A stretch of 40,496 nucleotides of DNA from Fidelibacterota bacterium. GTDB lineage: Bacteria; Pseudomonadota; Alphaproteobacteria; Rhodospirillales; Rhodospirillaceae. The stretch lies in NCBI GenBank assembly GCA_947475365.1, contig CANJOI010000003.1, forward strand, positions 1-40,496. The letters are read 5' to 3'. A model generated the notes under the pieces. It saw only the letters and a list, made by a program, of their open reading frames with translations, had not been told where the DNA came from and did not search any database. Shown in pieces: positions 1 through 9,745 of this stretch; the stretch's first letter is position 1, and the number at the start of each line of letters is the position of its first letter. A program made the position numbers and the translations under genes.

Positions 1-511
1 CGGGCGCCACGACAAAGCGCACCGGATTTATGCCCATGACGGTGAGCGCGTCGATCTCCTGGCTGATGCGCATGGTGCCGATGCGCGCCGCGAGCGACGA
101 GCCGGTGCGGCCGGAGATCAGAATACCGGTAAAAATGGGACCAAATTCGCGCACCACCGAAACACCCAAGCCGACCGTGACCTGGTCCTCGGCGCCGAAC
201 ACCTTCAGCGCATAAATGCCCTGGATCGCGAACATGATGCCGAGGGTGATGGACATCATGGTGAGGATGGGCAGGGCCTGGATGCCCACTTCCATGCAGC
301 GGGCGAACGTCGCGGCGATGCGCACCGGCTGGGCGCGGCCGCGGCCCATGAAGATCCAGAACAGGCTTTGCCAGAACAGAGCGGCGCCCAGGCCAATCTC
401 GGCGATGCCGGCCACGGCCTTCTGGCCCAAACGCGACAGGATCGCGGTGACCCGCGCGGATAGACCGCCCAAAGCCGAAGTGGGGCCGCCTTGGGTCGGG
501 GCTTCGGCCAT
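1..511 (-). CDS. mlaE: MlaE-family ABC transporter permease (partial, 3' end off window)
   Basis: Inner-membrane permease of the MlaE family, which with an MCE protein and an ATPase moves phospholipids between the two membranes. The first 170 codons are in the window; the reading frame runs off the left edge with no stop. Seen directly: a polar N-terminus of about 35 residues, a hydrophobic segment around a LGAALFWQSLFWIFMG stretch, and the family's most conserved block, REFGPIFTGILISGR followed by GTMRISQEIDAL. The ATG at 511 lies 11 bases after the stop of the STAS gene, so the two are almost certainly co-transcribed. STAS proteins (MlaB) are known partners of MlaE complexes, which supports the assignment. 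The ATPase and MCE genes would be expected further left, outside the window. Confidence 0.9.
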   Translation of the reverse strand, partial: MAEAPTQGGPTSALGGLSARVTAILSRLGQKAVAGIAEIGLGAALFWQSLFWIFMGRGRAQPVRIAATFARCMEVGIQALPILTMMSITLGIMFAIQGIYALKVFGAEDQVTVGLGVSVVREFGPIFTGILISGRTGSSLAARIGTMRISQEIDALTVMGINPVRFVVAP

Positions 512-522
512 GGTGGGGATTC

Positions 523-855
523 TCAGCTTTGAGCGGCGGTGGCCGCTTCAACCGATGGATGGATGGTGAAGACTTTGTCGAGGCGCGCCAGCGACAGCAC
601 GCGCATGGCCGCCGACGACACGCTGGCCAGCGCGAAGGATGCGCCCTTCTTGCGGCTGACCTGGAACGCTTCGACCAGCGACGCGACACCCGAGGAATCG
701 ATGTAGTTCACCGCGGACAGATCGACCACGACCTTGGTGTTGCCTTCGAGACTTTCCAGCAGCTTCTGGCGCACCACCGGCGAGGTCTGCAAATCGACGT
801 CGCCGTTCAGCGCCACCACCGCCGCCCCGTTCACATTGCGAATCTCGTAGCTCAT
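523..855 (-). CDS. STAS-domain protein (MlaB-like / anti-sigma antagonist-like)
   Basis: A single STAS domain fills all 110 residues. The hallmark loop IDSSGVASL (residues 52-60) keeps the Asp-Ser-Ser-Gly of phosphorylatable anti-anti-sigma factors such as SpoIIAA and RsbV. It lies 24 bases after a gene encoding PP2C phosphatase plus HATPase domains and 11 bases before an MlaE permease. Two readings are possible: an RsbV-like switch protein acting on a sigma pathway, or an MlaB-like subunit of the lipid transporter. The tight linkage to mlaE favours MlaB; the intact serine site and the upstream enzyme favour phosphorylation control. Both could be true together. No sigma factor or separate anti-sigma gene is seen nearby. 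Confidence 0.88.
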   Translation of the reverse strand: MSYEIRNVNGAAVVALNGDVDLQTSPVVRQKLLESLEGNTKVVVDLSAVNYIDSSGVASLVEAFQVSRKKGASFALASVSSAAMRVLSLARLDKVFTIHPSVEAATAAQS

Positions 856-879
856 CTAAATCTTATGCTCCGGAAAGGC

Positions 880-2703
880 CTAACTTACCTTGTTTGGCAG
901 GCGTTTGGTCAATTTAAATAAGTTCCCGACGCCCGGCGGCGGCGGCACAAACCGGGCATCGTCACACACCGATTTGATGAGATGAACGCCGAGCCCCCCG
1001 GGGCGGACTTCCGAGAGATTGCGGGGTTTAATGGTGTCCGGGTCCACGGGCTCGGCGAAATCCATGATGTCGACCGTCAGGACATCTCCCTCGCGCGTGT
1101 AGTCGATCATGATGTCGCCCTCGGCCTTATTTCCGTAGGCGTGGCGGACGATGTTCTGGCAGGCTTCGTCCACGGCCATTTTCAGGTCGAAGGTCCAGGA
1201 TTCGGAGGCATCGCAGTATTTGGACGCCTGTTCCGTGGCTGAACGGATCAGTTTCAAGCGGTCGGGGCGCGCCGGAACGCGGATGCGCATGATCTGACCG
1301 TCTTCCACCGAGAGTTTGTTGTCGATCGGCGGCTTAGCCCCCACCGGCGCGATGCCCATGTCCTCGACCACCAGCAACGTCAGGTCGTCGCGCAGCGACT
1401 GGCCGGGCAGCTTGACGGCGCCGGCAATGCTCTTGAGGCGCAGATCCGGCGCTTCCTCGGCGTGGTCGCGGATCAGGGCGCGCACGCCATCGATCCCGAG
1501 CATGCCGCCGCCGAAGGTGGTGGCCTCCGTGAGGCCGTCGGTGAACACATAAAGCATGCCGCCGGCGAGATAGATCTCGGTCACGGGAAATCCATCCGGC
1601 CCGGCGATGTCCTGGGCGATGCCCAAGGGCGGCGCATCGGCGGGGATGGAGATGAATCGCTCGGTCCGGAGGTCAAAGTGCAAAGGGGGCTCGTGGCCGG
1701 CGTTGGTGAGCCGCAACACGCCGGTGCCGGGGTGGAACAGCCCGCCCACCATGGTCACGAACATGCCGTGGAAATTGGTTTCGCACAGTTCGTTGTTGAT
1801 GGCGTTCAGGAGCTGGCCGGGGTCCTCGGCGCTTTTGGCGAGGCAGCGGAACAGGCTCGAGGTCTTGGCCATCAGGAGCGCGGCGTTCATGCCCTTGCCG
1901 GACACATCGCCGACGTTGAACCAGATGCGCCCGTCCGGCAGCGGCAGGATGTCGTAGAAATCGCCCGAGACCGACCGCGCCGGAATATTTATGCCGTGCA
2001 GCGGGAAATCGCGGCTGGTCGGCTGCGGCAACAGGTTGCGCTGGATCTCGGCGGCCAGTTCCAGTTCGTGCTGGTTGCGCTCTTGCTGGACGATCTTGTG
2101 GGTGAGGCGGAAATTGCTGATGGCGAGCGCGGCGGCGCCGGCGAGCGTTTCCAGGAGCATGAGGTCTTCGGCGTCGAACAATCCGTCGCCGCCGATGCGG
2201 TTGATGACCTCGATGGCGCCCAGGCAGTCGCTGCCGATCACCAGCGGGGCCACCAGCAGCGAGCGGGTGGTGAAGCCGGTCTTGGCGTCCACCGCCGCGC
2301 CGAAATCCTCGCGCTCGGCCACATCGCGCACCAGGGCGCCTTCGCGCATGCCGACCGCGCGGCCGACCACGCCGGTATTGGCGGAGATATTGAGCCCGGT
2401 GATGTCCACCGGCCCATAGCAGGCCGAGCACACCAGCGCCTCGCCGGAGTCGCTGAGCAGGAACAGCGACGCGGCCTCGGCGCCCATATAGGTGGTGATG
2501 CGGGCGAGGGCCGACTGGACGATGGTCTTGTAGTCCGAACTGGCCGTGAACTCGCGGGTCATCTCGGCCAGCAGGCCGAGGTGGTCCCTCACCCCGCGGC
2601 CGGTGTGACGTTCTCCATCGTGCCCGGCGTGGACATCAGGCTGTGCCGGAGGTGTCTCCGGGGGCTTTTCCGCCGCGCTGCTGTTGGCCGCTTGCTTGGG
2701 CAT
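880..2703 (-). CDS. GAF - PP2C (SpoIIE/RsbU) phosphatase - HATPase (RsbW-like) switch protein
   Basis: A 607-residue cytoplasmic signalling protein with three parts. Residues about 40-200 form a GAF sensor domain, followed by a short helical linker (QQERNQHELELAAEIQ). Residues about 225-430 form a PP2C/SpoIIE phosphatase with SGDFYDI, GDVSGKGM, NAGH, FTDGLTEA and DDLTLLV, which supply the metal-binding aspartates. Residues about 470-600 form an RsbW-type HATPase with the N-box VDEACQNIVRHAYG and a PGGLGVHLI glycine motif. Phosphatase and kinase-like activities on one chain would let it set the phosphorylation of a STAS protein, and one is encoded next. I chose the ATG at 2703 over an in-frame TTG at 2742, which adds 13 residues without a domain. 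The 5' neighbour on the same strand is a glycosyltransferase. Confidence 0.9.
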   Translation of the reverse strand: MPKQAANSSAAEKPPETPPAQPDVHAGHDGERHTGRGVRDHLGLLAEMTREFTASSDYKTIVQSALARITTYMGAEAASLFLLSDSGEALVCSACYGPVDITGLNISANTGVVGRAVGMREGALVRDVAEREDFGAAVDAKTGFTTRSLLVAPLVIGSDCLGAIEVINRIGGDGLFDAEDLMLLETLAGAAALAISNFRLTHKIVQQERNQHELELAAEIQRNLLPQPTSRDFPLHGINIPARSVSGDFYDILPLPDGRIWFNVGDVSGKGMNAALLMAKTSSLFRCLAKSAEDPGQLLNAINNELCETNFHGMFVTMVGGLFHPGTGVLRLTNAGHEPPLHFDLRTERFISIPADAPPLGIAQDIAGPDGFPVTEIYLAGGMLYVFTDGLTEATTFGGGMLGIDGVRALIRDHAEEAPDLRLKSIAGAVKLPGQSLRDDLTLLVVEDMGIAPVGAKPPIDNKLSVEDGQIMRIRVPARPDRLKLIRSATEQASKYCDASESWTFDLKMAVDEACQNIVRHAYGNKAEGDIMIDYTREGDVLTVDIMDFAEPVDPDTIKPRNLSEVRPGGLGVHLIKSVCDDARFVPPPPGVGNLFKLTKRLPNKVS

Positions 2704-2768: not shown

Positions 2769-3788
2769 TTATGCGAGGATCGCGCGGTAAACCGCAAGAT
2801 AGCGCTCAACCACCGCGGCCTCGGAAAACGCGGCGGCGGTGCGCTGGCGGCCACCGGCCACCAGGCGCTGGGCCAGCGCCCGGTCTTTAAGAATCGCATT
2901 CACCTGCGCCGCCAGGGCGCCCGCATCGTCCACCGGGGCGAGCAATCCATCATCGCCGTCGTGCACCAGCTTGCCTGGCCCCTGACTCGCGCAGGCGACC
3001 AGCGGCACCCCGTGCGACCAGGCGTTGAGCACGACGTTGCCGAACGGCTCGCTGCGCGACGGCAGCAGGCAGACATCGGCGGCCTTGAGCAGCGCCGAGC
3101 GGTCATCGCGCCAGCCCAGGAAGCGCACCCGGCCGCCCAGGCCGAGATCCGCGGCCAACTGTTTGAGTTTCCCTTCCGCCGGTCCCTCGCCCGCGATCCA
3201 CAGCACGGCGTCCTTGATCTCCACCAGAGCGCGCAGCGCGATATCGATGCCCTTGGCGGGATGCAGGCGCGCGAGGATCAGCAACACCGGCGCGGCTTGG
3301 CCGCCCAGAAGCGCCCGGTCCACCGCCGGCTCGTCGCGCACCGGGCAGAAGTTGGGGATGTAGTGCACGGCCGCGGCCGCGCGGCCCTCGCGCACCACAT
3401 AGTCGCAGATGTCCGGCGTGTTGCAGATGAGGTGCGTACAGCGACGATAGTATTTGAGATCGTAGTAGCCGCCGAGGCGTCCGACATTCACCCAGGGACC
3501 TTTTGGAAGATCCTTGCAGGCCCTGTTCATCCAGCCCATGGCGATGTCAGGCTTCGCGGCTTTGGCGATCTTGGCGAGCTTGAAGCGTGTGACCAGATCG
3601 AGCGGCCCGCCGAACTTGAGCATGGTGACAGGGCAGCCGGCCTTCGCAAGGATGGCGGCGCGCTCTGGGTACGGGCGGATCACGCCGACCTGCTCGGTTC
3701 CGGCTTTCACCAGCGCCGGCACCAGGTCTTCGTAGAACAGTTCCGCGCCGCCGTGGCGGCCGCTGGCCATGACTTGCAATACGCGCAT
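2769..3788 (-). CDS. GT4-family glycosyltransferase
   Basis: A 339-residue GT-B fold glycosyltransferase of family 4, predicted to transfer a sugar from a nucleotide donor to an envelope glycan or lipid. The N-terminus MRVLQVMASGRHGGAE is the typical acceptor-side start, and the donor half has ARLHPAKGID, AGEGPAEG and PSRSEPFGNVVLNAWSHG. The usual E-x7-E donor motif is seen as Glu247-x7-Asn255, so the second acid is replaced. The open frame extends far upstream, but the ATG at 3788 is chosen because the family's N-terminal motif begins there and the upstream part is antisense to the acyltransferase gene. It is divergent from that acyltransferase and 65 bases before the switch protein, so it may head that operon. 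Acceptor and sugar are unknown. Confidence 0.88.
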   Translation of the reverse strand: MRVLQVMASGRHGGAELFYEDLVPALVKAGTEQVGVIRPYPERAAILAKAGCPVTMLKFGGPLDLVTRFKLAKIAKAAKPDIAMGWMNRACKDLPKGPWVNVGRLGGYYDLKYYRRCTHLICNTPDICDYVVREGRAAAAVHYIPNFCPVRDEPAVDRALLGGQAAPVLLILARLHPAKGIDIALRALVEIKDAVLWIAGEGPAEGKLKQLAADLGLGGRVRFLGWRDDRSALLKAADVCLLPSRSEPFGNVVLNAWSHGVPLVACASQGPGKLVHDGDDGLLAPVDDAGALAAQVNAILKDRALAQRLVAGGRQRTAAAFSEAAVVERYLAVYRAILA

Positions 3789-3848
3789 GTGCCACACTCC
3801 TAACCCAACATCCGCTATAAGTCCCTCCCGTTTTCCAGCTTGACCGTG

Positions 3849-4727
3849 ATGACCGGCGCCCCGCTCAAATATCCCGTCCGCCACCGCCTCGAGGCCCTGA
3901 CCGCGCGCCTGATGTTCGGGCTGCTGCGCCTGTTGCCGACGCGCGCGGTTTCGGATTTCGGCGGCTGGCTGGGGCGCACGGTGGGGCCGCGCACGCGCGC
4001 GCACCGCATCGCCGCGCGCAACATGGCCGCGGCCATGCCCGAGGCCGACGCGGCGCAGCGCGACGCCTGGCTGGTGGAAGCCTGGGACAATTTCGGCCGC
4101 ACCATGGTGGAATACGCGGTGCTGCAACGTTTCGACCGCGCGCGCGAGGACCGCGTCGATGTGGAGGGCCACGAACGCCTGGCGGCGGTCCCGGCGGATC
4201 AGCCGGTGATCCTGTTCTGCGCCCATCTTGCCAACTGGGAAGTGATCCCGCTGGCGCTCACCGGCCGGTCCAAGCCGCTGACCATCGTTTACCGCGCCGC
4301 CAACAATCCGCTGGTGGACCAGATGATCGCCGCGGCGCGGGCGCCCTACACCGCGGACATGCTAGCCAAGGGCATCGCGGGGGCGCGCCGCATCGTGCGC
4401 GCGTTGATGGATGCGGCCCATGTCATCATGGTGGTGGATCAGAAACTCAACACCGGCTTGGCCGTGCCGTTCTTCGGCCGGCCCGCCTTCACCAGCCCCG
4501 CGGTCGTGAGCCTCGCCATGCGCTACGGCTGCCCGGTGTTCCCGGTGCGCACCGAGCGCCTGGCCAACGGCCGCTTCCTGGTGTCGGTGGAGGCGCCCTT
4601 CACGTTTCCCCCCGGAGACGAGAGCGCGTTGCGCGCGGGCCTGACGCAGGTGAACGCGCGCCTGGAACAATGGATCAGGAAGAAGCCCGGCCAGTGGCTA
4701 TGGATGCACCGCCGCTGGCCCGACTAA
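3849..4727 (+). CDS. Lysophospholipid acyltransferase, LpxL/HtrB family (lipid A-type)
   Basis: A 292-residue member of the LpxL/LpxM acyltransferase family, which adds secondary acyl chains to lipid A at the inner membrane. Seen: a hydrophobic N-terminal helix (LMFGLLRLLP, residues 21-30), the catalytic H-x4-E motif as His126-LANW-Glu131, a VVDQK stretch with a downstream FFGRPAFTSPA block typical of the family, and the C-terminal PGQWLWMHRRWPD signature. An in-frame TTG at 3840 would add three residues; the ATG at 3849 is preferred on codon grounds, as no clear ribosome site separates them. It is divergent from the GT4 glycosyltransferase, and its 3' end is 4 bases from the convergent ferredoxin gene. 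The acyl chain used cannot be told. Confidence 0.9.
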   Translation: MTGAPLKYPVRHRLEALTARLMFGLLRLLPTRAVSDFGGWLGRTVGPRTRAHRIAARNMAAAMPEADAAQRDAWLVEAWDNFGRTMVEYAVLQRFDRAREDRVDVEGHERLAAVPADQPVILFCAHLANWEVIPLALTGRSKPLTIVYRAANNPLVDQMIAAARAPYTADMLAKGIAGARRIVRALMDAAHVIMVVDQKLNTGLAVPFFGRPAFTSPAVVSLAMRYGCPVFPVRTERLANGRFLVSVEAPFTFPPGDESALRAGLTQVNARLEQWIRKKPGQWLWMHRRWPD

Positions 4728-5652: not shown

Positions 5653-5922
5653 ATGAGATCCATCATCACAGCCGCGGGCGCCGCGGCAATCCTGGTCACC
5701 ACACCGGCCCACGCCGTGGATATCGTCAACCGCGACCGCGTCGCGCGCGAAGCGGTGGTGAACACCAGCGACGGGCAGAGCAACATCATCACGCTTAAGG
5801 CCGGTGAACGCGCCGCCGATGTGTGCACATCCTGTGTGATCCTGGTGGGCGACACCTCGGTGGAGGTCGTCGGGCGCGCGGTCGCCGTCATCCAGGGCGG
5901 CAAGGTCACCGTCGGCCGCTGA
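5653..5922 (+). CDS. Small exported protein of unknown function
   Basis: An 89-residue protein with a clear Sec signal peptide (hydrophobic IITAAGAAAILVTT, cleavage likely after TPAHA, residue 21), leaving a mature chain of about 68 residues. The mature part contains a Cys-Thr-Ser-Cys pair (DVCTSCVIL) that could form a disulfide or bind metal, and it is rich in beta-prone residues. I do not recognise a family. A GAGGGGG ribosome site at about 5637-5643 supports the ATG at 5653 against the longer open frame. Its last 17 bases overlap the 3' end of the convergent permease gene, so no terminator separates them. Confidence 0.7.
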   Translation: MRSIITAAGAAAILVTTPAHAVDIVNRDRVAREAVVNTSDGQSNIITLKAGERAADVCTSCVILVGDTSVEVVGRAVAVIQGGKVTVGR

Positions 5923-6709
5923 GGCGGTTGCGCCCCGCCAGCGCAGCGCATCCCAGCAGGAGCGCGGTCGCCGCCACCAGCAGCGCCGCAAGCGCGTTGA
6001 TCTTGGGGCTGACTCCGAGGCGGATGCTGGAATAGATCACCATCGGCAGAGTCGTGGATTGCGGCCCGGCGACGAAGCTCGCGATCACCACGTCGTCCAG
6101 GGACAGCACGAACGCCAGCAGCCATCCCGCCGCCAGCGCCGGCGCCATCATCGGCAGCGTAATGCGAAAAAACACGGTGAACGGACGCGCGCCCAGGTCG
6201 CTGGCGGCGTCCTCGATCTCCCGGTCCATACCCGCCAGCCGTGCGCGCACGATCAGCGCCACGGTCGCCATGCTGAAACTGGCATGGGCTATGACGATGG
6301 TGGCCAGCCCTCGGCCCGGCAGGAACGGGACGGCGCTTTCCGCCGCCACGAACAGCAGCAGAAGCGACAGGCCCGTGATCACTTCCGGCACCACCAGCGG
6401 CGCTATGGTCGCGGTTGCGAACAGCCAGCGTGCGCGAAACGCACCGAAGCGCGCGAGGCAGTAGCCGGCGGCCGCGCCGACGATCACCGCCAGGGTGGCG
6501 GAGAGCACGCCTACCACCAGGCTGGTATTGGCCGCGGCCATGATCTGCCGGTCATTCAGGAGTTCGCCGTACCAGGCGGTCGAAAAGCCGGTCCACACCG
6601 TCACCAGCCGCGAGGCGTTGAAGGAATAGACGATCACCGCCGCCAACGGCACATAGAGGAACGCGAGGCCGGCCGCGAGCGCGAGGCCGAGCCAGGGAAT
6701 GCGCCTCAC
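5906..6709 (-). CDS. potI: Polyamine-type ABC transporter permease 2
   Basis: A 267-residue inner-membrane permease with six predicted membrane segments, second channel subunit of a spermidine/putrescine-type importer. The EAA loop that docks on the ATPase is seen as IEDAASDLGARPFTVFFRITLPMM (shown here in part; key residues EDAASDLGA and TLP). The start is a GTG at 6709 that overlaps the stop of the preceding permease gene (GTGA), which fixes the reading better than the longer open frame. It is last in a four-gene run with solute-binding protein, ATPase and first permease. Family context suggests polyamine uptake; related importers take up other amines, so the substrate is inferred. Confidence 0.9.
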   Translation of the reverse strand: MRRIPWLGLALAAGLAFLYVPLAAVIVYSFNASRLVTVWTGFSTAWYGELLNDRQIMAAANTSLVVGVLSATLAVIVGAAAGYCLARFGAFRARWLFATATIAPLVVPEVITGLSLLLLFVAAESAVPFLPGRGLATIVIAHASFSMATVALIVRARLAGMDREIEDAASDLGARPFTVFFRITLPMMAPALAAGWLLAFVLSLDDVVIASFVAGPQSTTLPMVIYSSIRLGVSPKINALAALLVAATALLLGCAALAGRNRLSGRR

Positions 6710-7569
6710 GGTTCCTCTCCCAAGGTGCGCTGCACCGCCAGGACCGGGATCACCAGCACCGCCATCATCACCACCGTCAAGGCGGCCGAGAGCGGCCAAT
6801 CGCGGCTGGAGAAGAACTCACTCCACAGCACCTTGCCGATCATCACCGTGTCGGGGCCACCGAGAAGATCTGGAATCACGAACTCGCCGACACAGGGGAT
6901 GAACACCAGGAGCGCGCCCGCCATCACGCCCGGCAGGGACAACGGCAGGGTCACGGAGAGAAAGGCGCGCCACGGCGTCGCGCCGAGATCGCCCGCGGCC
7001 TCGACGAGGGCCGGATCGAGCCGTTCCAGCCGCGCATAGAGCGGCAACACCATGAACGGAAGGTAAGCGTAGACCATGCCGAAACACACCGCGGCGGTGG
7101 TGTTGATCATCTGCAACGGGGTATCGATCAGGCCAACGGACTCCAGGACAGCGTTGATCACACCCCCTGGCCGCAACAGGCCGATCCAGGCGTAAATCCG
7201 GATCAAGAGGGAGGTCCAGAACGGCAAGGTCACCAGGAGCAGAAGCAGGCCGCGCCTGCGTTCGGGCGCCCGCGCGATGGCATACGCCATGGGATAACCG
7301 GCCAGCACGGCCAGGATCGTCGCCAGGCCGGCGATTTTGACGGAGCTGACATAGGCGCCGGCATAGAACGAGTCCGCGAACACATCGCGGTAGTTGGCGA
7401 GCGTCGCCCGCAGCGCGCCATGGTCGATCAGCGCCGTGTAGGGCGGCACGCCAACGGCGGTTTCAGCCAGGCTGATCTTTACGACAATCGCCAGCGGCAG
7501 GAAGAACAGCAGCGCAGCCCAGACCCAAGGAACCGCCAGCAGCGTCTTCCGGAACCGCGCGGCGCTCAT
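6706..7569 (-). CDS. potH: Polyamine-type ABC transporter permease 1
   Basis: A 287-residue permease with six predicted membrane segments, first channel subunit of the importer. Seen: an N-terminal helix with WVWAALLFFLPLAIVVKISL, an LPFWTSLLIR segment typical of PotB/PotH, and the EAA loop EAAGDLGATPWRAFLSVTLP. Its ATG at 7569 overlaps the end of the ATPase gene by 4 bases (ATGA), and its TGA overlaps the GTG start of the next permease gene, a layout that usually means coupled translation and fixed subunit ratios. Confidence 0.93.
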   Translation of the reverse strand: MSAARFRKTLLAVPWVWAALLFFLPLAIVVKISLAETAVGVPPYTALIDHGALRATLANYRDVFADSFYAGAYVSSVKIAGLATILAVLAGYPMAYAIARAPERRRGLLLLLVTLPFWTSLLIRIYAWIGLLRPGGVINAVLESVGLIDTPLQMINTTAAVCFGMVYAYLPFMVLPLYARLERLDPALVEAAGDLGATPWRAFLSVTLPLSLPGVMAGALLVFIPCVGEFVIPDLLGGPDTVMIGKVLWSEFFSSRDWPLSAALTVVMMAVLVIPVLAVQRTLGEEP

Positions 7570-8621
7570 GGCGCGAGCACCCGCACCGCCGCCGCCGGCC
7601 AGGAGGCCGTGACCGTATCGCCGCGGCGGAAGGCCGCGCCGGCGCCGTTCTGCCGCACGACCCGGAGACGGTGCTCCCCATGCCGCACGAAATAGGTGGA
7701 AACCGTGCCGCCGTAGACCACCTCCGCGATAACGCCGGTGATCTGATTGGAACCAACATCATTCTCCGGCCCCCGCAGGGTGATCTGTTCAGGGCGCACC
7801 GCCACCGCCACCATCGCGCCCTCGCGCGGCAGCGGATCGGCGACCCGCACCGTACCGGCGGCGCAAGCGACGGAATCAGTCCCTGTCACCGCGCCGTCCC
7901 AGATATTCATATGCCCGAAGAACCCCGCCACTGCGCGGTTCAACGGGCGATCGTAGAGATCGCGCGGCGCGCCGGTCTGCAGGATGCGCCCGCGGTCCAT
8001 GACCGCCACACGCGTTGCCATGCCCATGGCCTCGTCCTGGTCGTGGGTGACCACGATGAAGGCGATCCCAAGTTTCTCGCGGAGCGTCATGAGTTCCAGT
8101 TGGGTGCGTTCGCGCAAATGTTTGTCGAGGGCCGCCAGCGGTTCGTCCAGGAGCAGGGCGCGCGGGCGTTTGGCGAGACAACGAGCCAGCGCCACCCGCT
8201 GTTTCTGGCCGCCAGAGAGCTGCTGCGGCTTGCGCGTGCCGAGGGCTTCCATCTCCACGCGCGCCAGCGCCTCACGTACACGATCTGTAAGTGCGGCGCC
8301 CTTGAGGCCGTCCTGCCGGAGCCCGAAAGCCACGTTGTCCGCGACGGTCATATGCGGAAACAGCGCGTAGGACTGGAACATCATATTGACCGGGCGCTGG
8401 TAGGGGGCGCGGCCGTTCTGGTTTACGGCGTCGATGAGGATCTGTCCGGCGTCGGGCGTTTCCAGTCCGGCAATGGCGCGCAGCAGCGTGGTCTTGCCGC
8501 AGCCCGAAGGTCCGAGCAGCGCCAGGAATTCATTCTCGGCCACGTCCAGCGAAACAGCGTCCAGCGCGATCACGTCACCGAAGCGCTTGGTGAGTCCTTC
8601 AATCCGGATGACGGCTGGCAC
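7566..8621 (-). CDS. potG: Polyamine-type ABC transporter ATP-binding protein
   Basis: A 351-residue ATPase of the PotA/PotG type. Walker A is GPSGCGKT (37-44), the signature LSGGQ (135-139), Walker B LLLDEP (156-161), followed by a switch histidine in VVTHDQDEA. The C-terminal third is a TOBE regulatory domain, as in spermidine/putrescine importers. The start is a GTG at 8621 whose first base is the last base of the upstream TAG stop (TAGTG), so translation is probably coupled to the binding-protein gene. It energises import through the two permeases encoded downstream. Confidence 0.94.
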   Translation of the reverse strand: MPAVIRIEGLTKRFGDVIALDAVSLDVAENEFLALLGPSGCGKTTLLRAIAGLETPDAGQILIDAVNQNGRAPYQRPVNMMFQSYALFPHMTVADNVAFGLRQDGLKGAALTDRVREALARVEMEALGTRKPQQLSGGQKQRVALARCLAKRPRALLLDEPLAALDKHLRERTQLELMTLREKLGIAFIVVTHDQDEAMGMATRVAVMDRGRILQTGAPRDLYDRPLNRAVAGFFGHMNIWDGAVTGTDSVACAAGTVRVADPLPREGAMVAVAVRPEQITLRGPENDVGSNQITGVIAEVVYGGTVSTYFVRHGEHRLRVVRQNGAGAAFRRGDTVTASWPAAAVRVLAP

Positions 8622-9745
8622 TAGTTACCGGCCTTGATCCGGTTCCAGATGCGGGTGCGCAGGCGTTCGATCTCCGGCGATGGCGTCGATTCCGAGAACA
8701 GCTTCTTCATGGTCGCCGGATCGGGATAGACGGTCTTGTCCTTTTTGATCTCGGCATCGATGTAGGGGGCCGCCTTGGCGTTGCCGTTGGCGTAGAACAC
8801 CTTGTTGGTGATCGGTCCGATCACCGCCGGGTCGAGGATGTAGTTGAGAAACGCGTAGGCCGCGTCGGCATGGGGGGCGTCCTTGGGGATCGCCATGAAG
8901 TCGGACCACATCACGGCGCCTTCTTTGGGAATGCTATAGCTGATCTCGACCCCCTTCTTGGCCTCCGCCGCGCGGTCGCGGGCCTGAAACACATCGCCGG
9001 AGAATCCCATGGCGACGCAGATGTCGCCGTTGGCCAGCGCCGAGATGTATTCGGAATTGTGGAACTTGCCGACCGAGGGCCGCACCTTGCGCCACAGCTC
9101 CGCGACCTTGTCGTAGTCGGCGGGTGTATTCGAATGGGGATCGAGGCCGAGGTAGTTGAGCGACACCTCGAACACGTCCGAGGGAGAATCGAATACATAG
9201 ACCCCGCACTTGGCGAGCCTGGCGGCGTTGGCCGGATCGAACAAGAGGCTCCAGCTATCCACAGGCGCATTGGGCCCGAGGGCCGCGCGCACTTTGGCGG
9301 CGTTGTAGCCGATGCCTGAGGTGCCCCACATGTAGACAATGCCGTGAGCATTGCCGGGATCGACCCCGGCGGCGCCGGCGGTGATCTGCGGGTCCTGGGT
9401 GCCGATATTGGCGAGCTTGGATTTGTCCAATGGCCGCACCACGCCCGCCTGGATGAACCGCCGCAGCACCGGACCATTGGGGACAATCACGTCGTAGCCC
9501 GAACCACCCGCCAGCAGCTTCGCCTCGAGCATCTCGGAGGAGTCGAACACGTCCATATTCACGGCGATGCCGGTGCGCTTTGTGAAATTGGCGAGCGTGT
9601 CGGGGGCGAGGTAGTCCGACCAGATGTAAAGGTTAAGGACTTTGTCGGCGGACGCGGCGGACGCAGGGCACGCCGCCGCGATCCCCAACGTCATAATCGC
9701 CGCCACCGCCACCAGCCGCGCGCGGACTCCGGAAACGACCGTCAT
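8621..9745 (-). CDS. potF: Periplasmic polyamine-type substrate-binding protein
   Basis: A 374-residue periplasmic binding protein. A Sec signal peptide covers about residues 1-33 (hydrophobic LVAVAAIMTLGIAAA, cleavage near ASA). The mature protein starts with VLNLYIWSDYLAPDTLANF, the strand and Trp-Ser-Asp-Tyr site of the PotD/PotF family, and continues with ELWRKVRPSVGKF and a FAMIP-like region DFMAIPKDAPH. It is the first gene of the importer run and is read away from a divergent alpha/beta hydrolase gene. Ligand could be putrescine, spermidine or another amine; this needs comparison of pocket residues with PotF and PotD. Confidence 0.93.
   Translation of the reverse strand: MTVVSGVRARLVAVAAIMTLGIAAACPASAASADKVLNLYIWSDYLAPDTLANFTKRTGIAVNMDVFDSSEMLEAKLLAGGSGYDVIVPNGPVLRRFIQAGVVRPLDKSKLANIGTQDPQITAGAAGVDPGNAHGIVYMWGTSGIGYNAAKVRAALGPNAPVDSWSLLFDPANAARLAKCGVYVFDSPSDVFEVSLNYLGLDPHSNTPADYDKVAELWRKVRPSVGKFHNSEYISALANGDICVAMGFSGDVFQARDRAAEAKKGVEISYSIPKEGAVMWSDFMAIPKDAPHADAAYAFLNYILDPAVIGPITNKVFYANGNAKAAPYIDAEIKKDKTVYPDPATMKKLFSESTPSPEIERLRTRIWNRIKAGN

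Follow-up and report, generated by a model that had tools for sequence, protein, structure and literature searches.

The subject of this text is a row of three genes at the left end of a 40,496-nucleotide stretch of DNA, called the window below, which is an entire contig of a draft genome of the Rhodospirillaceae (G000:C3:1-40496). On bases 1-2703, minus strand, an enzyme gene is followed by a gene for a small STAS protein and by a gene for an MlaE permease, a component of ATP-binding cassette (ABC) lipid transporters, and the permease gene is truncated by the contig edge. An earlier note, made from the letters alone, had described this row as a GAF-PP2C-HATPase fusion, a STAS protein with an Asp-Ser-Ser-Gly site and an MlaE permease, following each other with gaps of 24 and 11 bases. 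Open reading frames and Pfam confirm that description, the enzyme/STAS gap being bases 856-879 and the STAS/MlaE gap bases 512-522. The features are the following.

880..2703, minus strand, ATG at 2703: GAF-PP2C-HATPase enzyme of 607 amino acids, predicted phosphatase and kinase of the STAS protein (Pfam)
2113..2538, minus strand: GAF domain, residues 56-197 of the enzyme (PF13185/PF01590/PF13492)
1363..1938, minus strand: SpoIIE-type PP2C phosphatase domain, residues 256-447 (PF07228, 135.8 bits)
919..1278, minus strand: HATPase_c_2 domain, residues 476-595, predicted RsbW/SpoIIAB-like serine kinase (PF13581, 77.4 bits)
523..855, minus strand: free-standing STAS protein of 110 amino acids, predicted MlaB-like subunit (PF01740, 76.2 bits)
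694..696, minus strand: codon of Ser54, the predicted phospho-acceptor within Asp-Ser-Ser-Gly, residues 53-56 (alignment)
2..511, minus strand: 5' part of an MlaE-family permease, 170 residues (PF02405, 115.1 bits, profile positions 2-103 of 212)

Pfam finds no REC domain in the enzyme. The operon is broken off at base 1, and because the contig starts there, the remaining part had to be read from relatives. The source genome (80% complete, 340 contigs) does carry a second, distinct MlaE on contig C15 and two MlaD domains on C11, which resemble the MlaD of E. coli more than that of the operon type described below; the latter MlaD was not found in the source assembly, where MlaF and the lipoprotein were not searched.

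Our sample of relatives comprised 61 genomes, the source genome and 60 others, and 57 of the 61 match the enzyme in some part. Around the best enzyme matches 38 loci were fetched, and their gene order was scored by tblastn. What follows the enzyme on its 3' side in these relatives is STAS, MlaE (a permease of about 270-290 amino acids), MlaF (about 280), MlaD (mostly about 310-335, with one MCE domain) and, as the last gene, a PqiC-like lipoprotein of family PF03886; in L046 and L059 this family scores 64.3 and 41.5 bits. The six-gene order is complete at 31 of the 38 loci; four more (L048, L053, L062, L078) are collinear and broken by contig ends, and three (L057, L065, L073) are real exceptions. 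The earlier note had proposed to look for MlaF and MlaD genes to the left, and in the relatives' loci they do lie beyond MlaE, the window's own contig ending within MlaE.

A second collection, from an enzyme-alignment scan over named contigs, gives a similar picture for the best 80 of its 346 loci, whose genomes partly overlap those of the first set. All six genes are present in 62 of these 80, and 13 show shorter collinear runs stopped by a contig end; among the other five, L104, L113 and L126 end at or near a contig edge, and L103 and L121 belong to the genomes of L057 and L065. Two named isolates have the six-gene order, Magnetovibrio blakemorei MV-1 (L148) and Terasakiella brassicae CGMCC 1.15254 (L149). 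The remaining six-gene genomes of this collection are mostly metagenome-assembled genomes by their titles, many of them of Rhodospirillales or Rhodospirillaceae. A plasmid search with the enzyme returned 325 records, none of which covers 80% of it in one place.

In its MlaE-, MlaF- and MlaD-like genes, its long MlaD and its terminal PqiC-like lipoprotein, the operon is like the Mpc (Mla-Pqi chimeric) system of Brucella, which has four genes and a 331-amino-acid MpcD with features shared in Hyphomicrobiales (PMC12436622). Unlike Brucella Mpc, where STAS forms the N-terminus of the permease, the operon studied here and in relatives has STAS as a separate gene, with a kinase/phosphatase gene ahead of it. 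By word count, 'kinase' does not occur in the main text of that paper as available, and 'phosphatase' occurs in its reference list only. The earlier note had spoken of an Mla-type operon; that this is a lipid transporter stands, while the assignment to plain Mla has to be given up in favour of the Mpc type. Two apparent STAS-permease fusions in the enzyme-linked set (L068, L069) were rejected, their long frames being a frame-extension artefact or run-on.

How closely the parts keep company can be judged from the 61 genomes, where STAS was counted as present at 148 bits or more and the operon-type permease above 415 bits. STAS is found in 41 of the 61 and the permease in 39 (38 above the limit and the window's cut copy), and every one of the 39 permease-bearing genomes also carries STAS. 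A kinase domain lies directly upstream of STAS in all 41, with -16 to 160 bases between them in the 40 loci that were fetched, to which the window is added; in one of them (G038, L170) PP2C was not found beside the kinase. The enzyme may also be split, and in the split cases (L065, L072, L075-L079) HATPase is a frame of its own between PP2C and STAS. The enzyme parts thus accompany the permease whether they form one chain or are split. Seven genomes of the same genus (G008, G011, G014-G018) are without both STAS and the operon-type permease, and three of these (G008, near a contig end, G011 and G018) have kept a fragment of the enzyme gene. Second STAS copies also occur: around that of G044 (L164) the open reading frames show, by reading, no transporter, and those of L165-L169, seen in the operon-query scan only, have no MlaE, with a distant MlaF-like ATPase 3 kb off in L166.

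The arrangement is not confined to close relatives. From a class sample of 385 genomes 20 loci were fetched, and from a phylum sample of 398 genomes 13. Kinase, STAS and MlaE are collinear in 13 of the 20 class loci (L227, L229-L237, L239, L242, L244). In L242 and L244 the order is kinase-STAS-MlaE-MlaF-MlaD-lipoprotein with no adjacent PP2C, and in L241 (5487-11354) STAS, PP2C and kinase share one strand and stand tail-to-tail with transporter genes on the opposite strand. At five of the 20 class loci (L238, L240, which ends at a contig edge, L243, L245, L246) there is no STAS match. Two loci, L234 (1291-2006) and L236 (6324-7039), have a tandem STAS pair between kinase and MlaE, and the MlaE-adjacent member is nearer to the usual type; perhaps one of the two binds MlaF and the other binds the kinase. 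In the phylum sample, L273 has the full six-gene order and L280, with the kinase at the contig start, is collinear from there on. In L281:8506-13130, which is from another class, the order is kinase-STAS-MlaF-MlaE-MlaD-MlaC-PP2C, that is, a canonical mlaFEDC operon flanked by the switch genes. L274 shows PP2C and STAS at a contig end, and the nine other phylum loci, some on short contigs, have PP2C (L282 also a kinase part) and no STAS or Mla match.

The conservation of gene order, which the earlier note had offered as a way to check its proposal, thus extends beyond relatives of the same order, to further families within the class and to further classes within the phylum. Because the order recurs across dozens of genomes, it is more than chance, and a chance neighbourhood of three genes is ruled out by this same spread. 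We regard the block of enzyme, STAS and transporter as a new combination of known parts that recurs in several classes.

The residues expected to matter are conserved. In an alignment of 27 enzymes (that of the window and 26 of 29 unbroken full-length frames), PP2C residues Asp248, Asp266, Asp389, Asp439 and Asp440 are invariant, as are HATPase residues Glu513, Asn517, Asp548, Gly570 and Gly572, which comprise the N-box Glu/Asn and the glycine box; going by the protein families, we take these residues to be catalytic. Ser54, Ser55 and Gly56 are invariant in all 37 aligned STAS proteins, and Ser54 aligns with Thr52 of E. coli MlaB (K-12 record). The HATPase part falls under the cut-offs of the NCBIfam RsbW equivalog models (52.6 bits against 145 and 48.3 against 155.05), and its closest RsbW chain is 6m36_A (E 4.4e-9).

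AlphaFold models were obtained for the STAS protein (predicted local distance difference test score, pLDDT, 94.9) and for the enzyme (pLDDT 81.5). Matches in the fold search with the enzyme are to single domains within the 607-residue model, and its HATPase part is barely covered. The best is the SiaA PP2C (Z 26.3); the RsbU-RsbW part of Rv1364c (3ke6) is matched with Z 24.7 and a root-mean-square deviation of 18.8, a value to be expected of two domains that are placed differently. For the GAF domain the closest solved sequence is 5w10 (E 9.2e-13), titled as a cAMP-bound GAF domain, which suggests cyclic nucleotides as a first guess only.

Other kinds of transporter were compared with this one. 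An MlaE search of the class sample gave 13 matches of at least 295 bits besides the window's cut copy, and the remaining matches listed score at most 225 bits, most of them in frames of about 375-450 amino acids. Eleven of the 13 operon-type permeases have kinase and STAS directly upstream; in G272 the arrangement is tail-to-tail, and the last belongs to G372, to which we return below. L242 and L244 have kinase-linked permeases that are more distant and lie outside the 13, so the MlaE score fails to separate all cases. At 20 chosen long-frame loci (frames of 378-452 codons) the 10-12 kb fetched contain neither a kinase nor a PP2C match. Pfam recognises MlaE in all of the ten long-frame permeases submitted to it and an N-terminal STAS or STAS_2 domain above cut-off in five, with the other five below; these loci have the Mpc layout as described for Brucella, with STAS fused to the permease, as far as the available description goes.

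The two kinds differ at the acceptor site, which was read by alignment in free STAS proteins and by motif in the fused set (L331 by eye). There are 118 distinct free STAS sequences, 116 of which have a kinase upstream; 115 of these were readable after a broken piece in L100 was dropped. The acceptor is Ser in 114 of the 115, and in the 20 kinase-free STAS-permease fusions it is Thr in 16, Ser in three (L324, L330, L335) and Val in one (L318). MlaF differs as well. Of 100 distinct complete MlaFs from loci with the enzyme or a kinase, 92 have a C-terminal tail D..Y[LM]xxL, like Tyr261/Leu265/Leu266 of E. coli MlaF, where the tail meets MlaB. The eight that lack it comprise two near-matches (L170, L227), three apparent reading errors (L159, L237, L239) and three altered tails (L229, L241, L242); the MlaF of L244, under the score limit, is outside the 100. 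The tail is found in none of 20 fused-type MlaFs, nor in any of 19 MlaFs from generic mla loci of the 61-genome set without a STAS match in the fetched stretch. Since the tail accompanies free STAS, we read it as a probable sign that free STAS docks on MlaF as MlaB does.

The explanation that we favour, and consider probable, is that the operon encodes an Mpc-type inner-membrane lipid transporter with the STAS subunit as a phosphorylation switch run by the upstream enzyme. Unphosphorylated STAS would sit on the ATPase MlaF, with the C-terminal tail of MlaF holding it in the way known for MlaB in E. coli, and STAS-bound MlaF would stay on MlaE in the active state. The HATPase domain would then phosphorylate Ser54, at the predicted centre of the STAS-MlaF interface, and thereby release STAS or stop the ATPase, while the PP2C domain would strip the phosphate and bring transport back on. 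The GAF domain, via a long helix, would set the balance of kinase and phosphatase in response to a ligand. As to direction, in E. coli MlaB the residue Thr52 is located at the interface with MlaF, and its change to Glu weakens MlaF binding (PMC7367683), and the change to Ala leaves assembly intact and abolishes ATPase activity (PMC5016091); because of these two effects, a kinase acting on Ser54 would be expected to switch the pump off and the PP2C to switch it on. Phosphorylation-switched lipid transport, as the earlier note proposed it, is in this form supported by the comparative evidence.

A wider proposition is that an ABC lipid transporter has come under direct partner switching, with MlaF taking the position usual for an anti-sigma or sigma factor, in at least two gene arrangements and at least two classes. 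The free STAS subunits of these pumps would then be phospho-switches, and the fused Thr form without a neighbouring kinase would have lost the switch or never had it. We regard this as evenly balanced between being right and being wrong.

Several observations weigh against the explanation that we favour. In G029 (L065) enzyme and STAS are kept without the transporter, and the next gene is, by reading, like a glutathione S-transferase gene. G054 (L073) has enzyme and STAS with a truncated permease and a lipoprotein remnant that has no Pfam match, and MlaF and MlaD were not found there. G171 (L228) has enzyme and STAS without MlaE, with a CcmA-like ABC gene next by reading and a contig end close by. 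The opposite case is G372, which has an operon-type permease at a contig edge together with MlaF and MlaD (L296:3-2201) and no enzyme match in the genome; its sole STAS is on a different contig, and neither a kinase nor a PP2C match occurs there within 3.3 kb. As this genome is 86% complete, G372 represents either absent sequence or a true counter-example. One kinase-linked STAS (L244) has Thr as the acceptor, and a clear MlaF tail is absent in L229, L241, L242 and L244. The STAS protein resembles anti-sigma antagonists (Z 17-19) more than MlaB (Z 13) in sequence and in fold: it scores 82.3 bits with the anti-sigma factor antagonist model TIGR00377, above its cut-off of 53.45, and carries the Asp-Ser-x-Gly acceptor expected of such antagonists; with the NCBIfam MlaB model NF033618 it scores 29.1 bits, under the cut-off of 90, and its model matches 4qtp with Z 18.8, SpoIIAA with Z 18.1 and Pseudomonas MlaB with Z 13.2. 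Finally, the sequences share ancestry, and the counts are not counts of independent events.

In L073:8918-9962 the enzyme and STAS genes are intact and MlaE is down to about 80 residues. Perhaps genes were deleted here recently, perhaps the switch has taken on a new role, or perhaps the assembly is wrong at this place.

The affinity of STAS to anti-sigma antagonists and the persistence of the enzyme-STAS pair without the transporter in G029, G054 and G171 would suit an ordinary partner switch, one whose target is a sigma/anti-sigma pair or some other regulator and which shares the operon for common expression only. In our opinion this is quite improbable, given that the linkage to the transporter recurs in several arrangements and in other classes and that the MlaF tail goes with free STAS. 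Moreover, the STAS profile detects no other free-standing STAS protein in the 12 same-genus genomes with the operon (three of which have an extra STAS match inside a frame of over 600 amino acids), and there is no second HATPase_c_2 (PF13581) match above 46 bits in the nine same-genus genomes searched, sigma factors not having been searched in either set. A sigma-factor circuit in the same genus is therefore disfavoured; the earlier note had named, as something that would refute it, an anti-sigma/sigma pair elsewhere that makes use of this STAS protein, and within these genomes no such rival user came to light.

Two other explanations accept the transporter and change the logic. It may be that STAS is the phosphorylated subunit and the polarity is reversed, or that the kinase mainly sequesters STAS, so that phosphorylation promotes MlaF activity. 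Polarity does vary among STAS proteins, phosphorylation of BtrV promoting BtrW binding and that of SypA inactivating SypA (PMC8256260), and MlaB with Thr52Ala is inactive though bound. Against it stands the weakened MlaF binding of the Thr52Glu form in E. coli, and we hold a reversed polarity to be unlikely. Alternatively, control may flow the other way, with the state of the transporter setting the free STAS, and STAS setting enzyme activity toward a further output. Classical RsbV/RsbW logic, in which the STAS protein controls the HATPase (PMC10120452), and the ability of the enzyme-STAS pair to outlive the transporter are in line with this, whereas a single chain of kinase and phosphatase fits better the control of a downstream STAS protein as described for SypE (PMC10120452); a flow from transporter to enzyme appears very doubtful to us.

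What would follow from the switch as we favour it is that a sensory enzyme acutely turns on and off the movement of lipids towards or away from the outer membrane. An ABC ATPase would also be added to the outputs of partner switches. A candidate dedicated kinase and phosphatase also makes the long-suspected phosphorylation of MlaB-type proteins testable, including in the two named isolates.

To our knowledge, the known outputs of Rv1364c and of RsbU-RsbW-RsbV type switches are sigma factors. The enzyme is like these in having PP2C and RsbW domains in one chain, and it is unlike them in its neighbours, which are the genes of an ABC lipid transporter. With SiaABCD of Pseudomonas it shares a likeness of the PP2C fold, as seen above; the SiaB kinase of that system is a separate protein, and the Sia output, unlike the one proposed here, is a diguanylate cyclase. 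For SpoIIAA and RsbV the output is again sigma factors (PMC10120452). The nearest likeness in logic is to SypE of Vibrio fischeri, a serine kinase and phosphatase acting on the STAS protein SypA in biofilm control, with the target of SypA described as unknown (PMC10120452); here too one kinase/phosphatase protein is predicted to control a STAS protein that acts after it. The order of domains differs, since SypE is kinase-REC-phosphatase.

The likeness to MlaFEDB/MlaC of E. coli (PMC7367683, PMC5016091) consists in a free STAS protein, Ser or Thr at the equivalent site and the C-terminal tail of MlaF. E. coli differs in that MlaB has Thr and that the mlaB gene is the last of the operon, after mlaC; in the parts of PMC7367683 and PMC5016091 used here, no kinase or phosphatase is named for MlaB. 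Phosphorylation of MlaB was hypothesised in 2016 (PMC5016091) and called undetermined in 2020 (PMC7367683). By word count in the available text, MlaB is absent from a review of STAS-only proteins (PMC8256260). The neighbourhoods of MCE genes were surveyed in 2017 (PMC5561183); DUF330 lipoproteins and STAS genes are reported there, and the sections available name no PP2C or kinase. In the open-access literature, paywalled papers being outside it, we found among the matches listed no paper that joins an Mla or Mpc transporter to a PP2C or HATPase enzyme. The earlier note knew of no described case; this holds for the candidate enzyme, which is what is new, and it does not hold for the idea of MlaB phosphorylation itself, which is already in print in the two papers just named.

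Some further observations concern the surroundings. One same-genus locus (L171:6145-9612) contains a second PP2C protein of 722 amino acids beside a gene of 414 amino acids; by reading, its N-terminal part is like a sensor and its C-terminal part is a PP2C domain, and no further free STAS is detected in this genome by the STAS profile. In the window, bases 2772-4724 hold a glycosyltransferase gene, on the strand of the enzyme and 65 bases upstream of it, and a divergent lipid A acyltransferase gene. A glycosyltransferase gene is directly upstream of the enzyme in 26 of 106 loci with enough flank, a count in which some genomes appear twice. Further along, at 5909-9745, lies a four-gene binding-protein-dependent ABC importer with two permeases, an ATPase with a TOBE domain and a solute-binding protein, which by reading only appears to be of the polyamine type.

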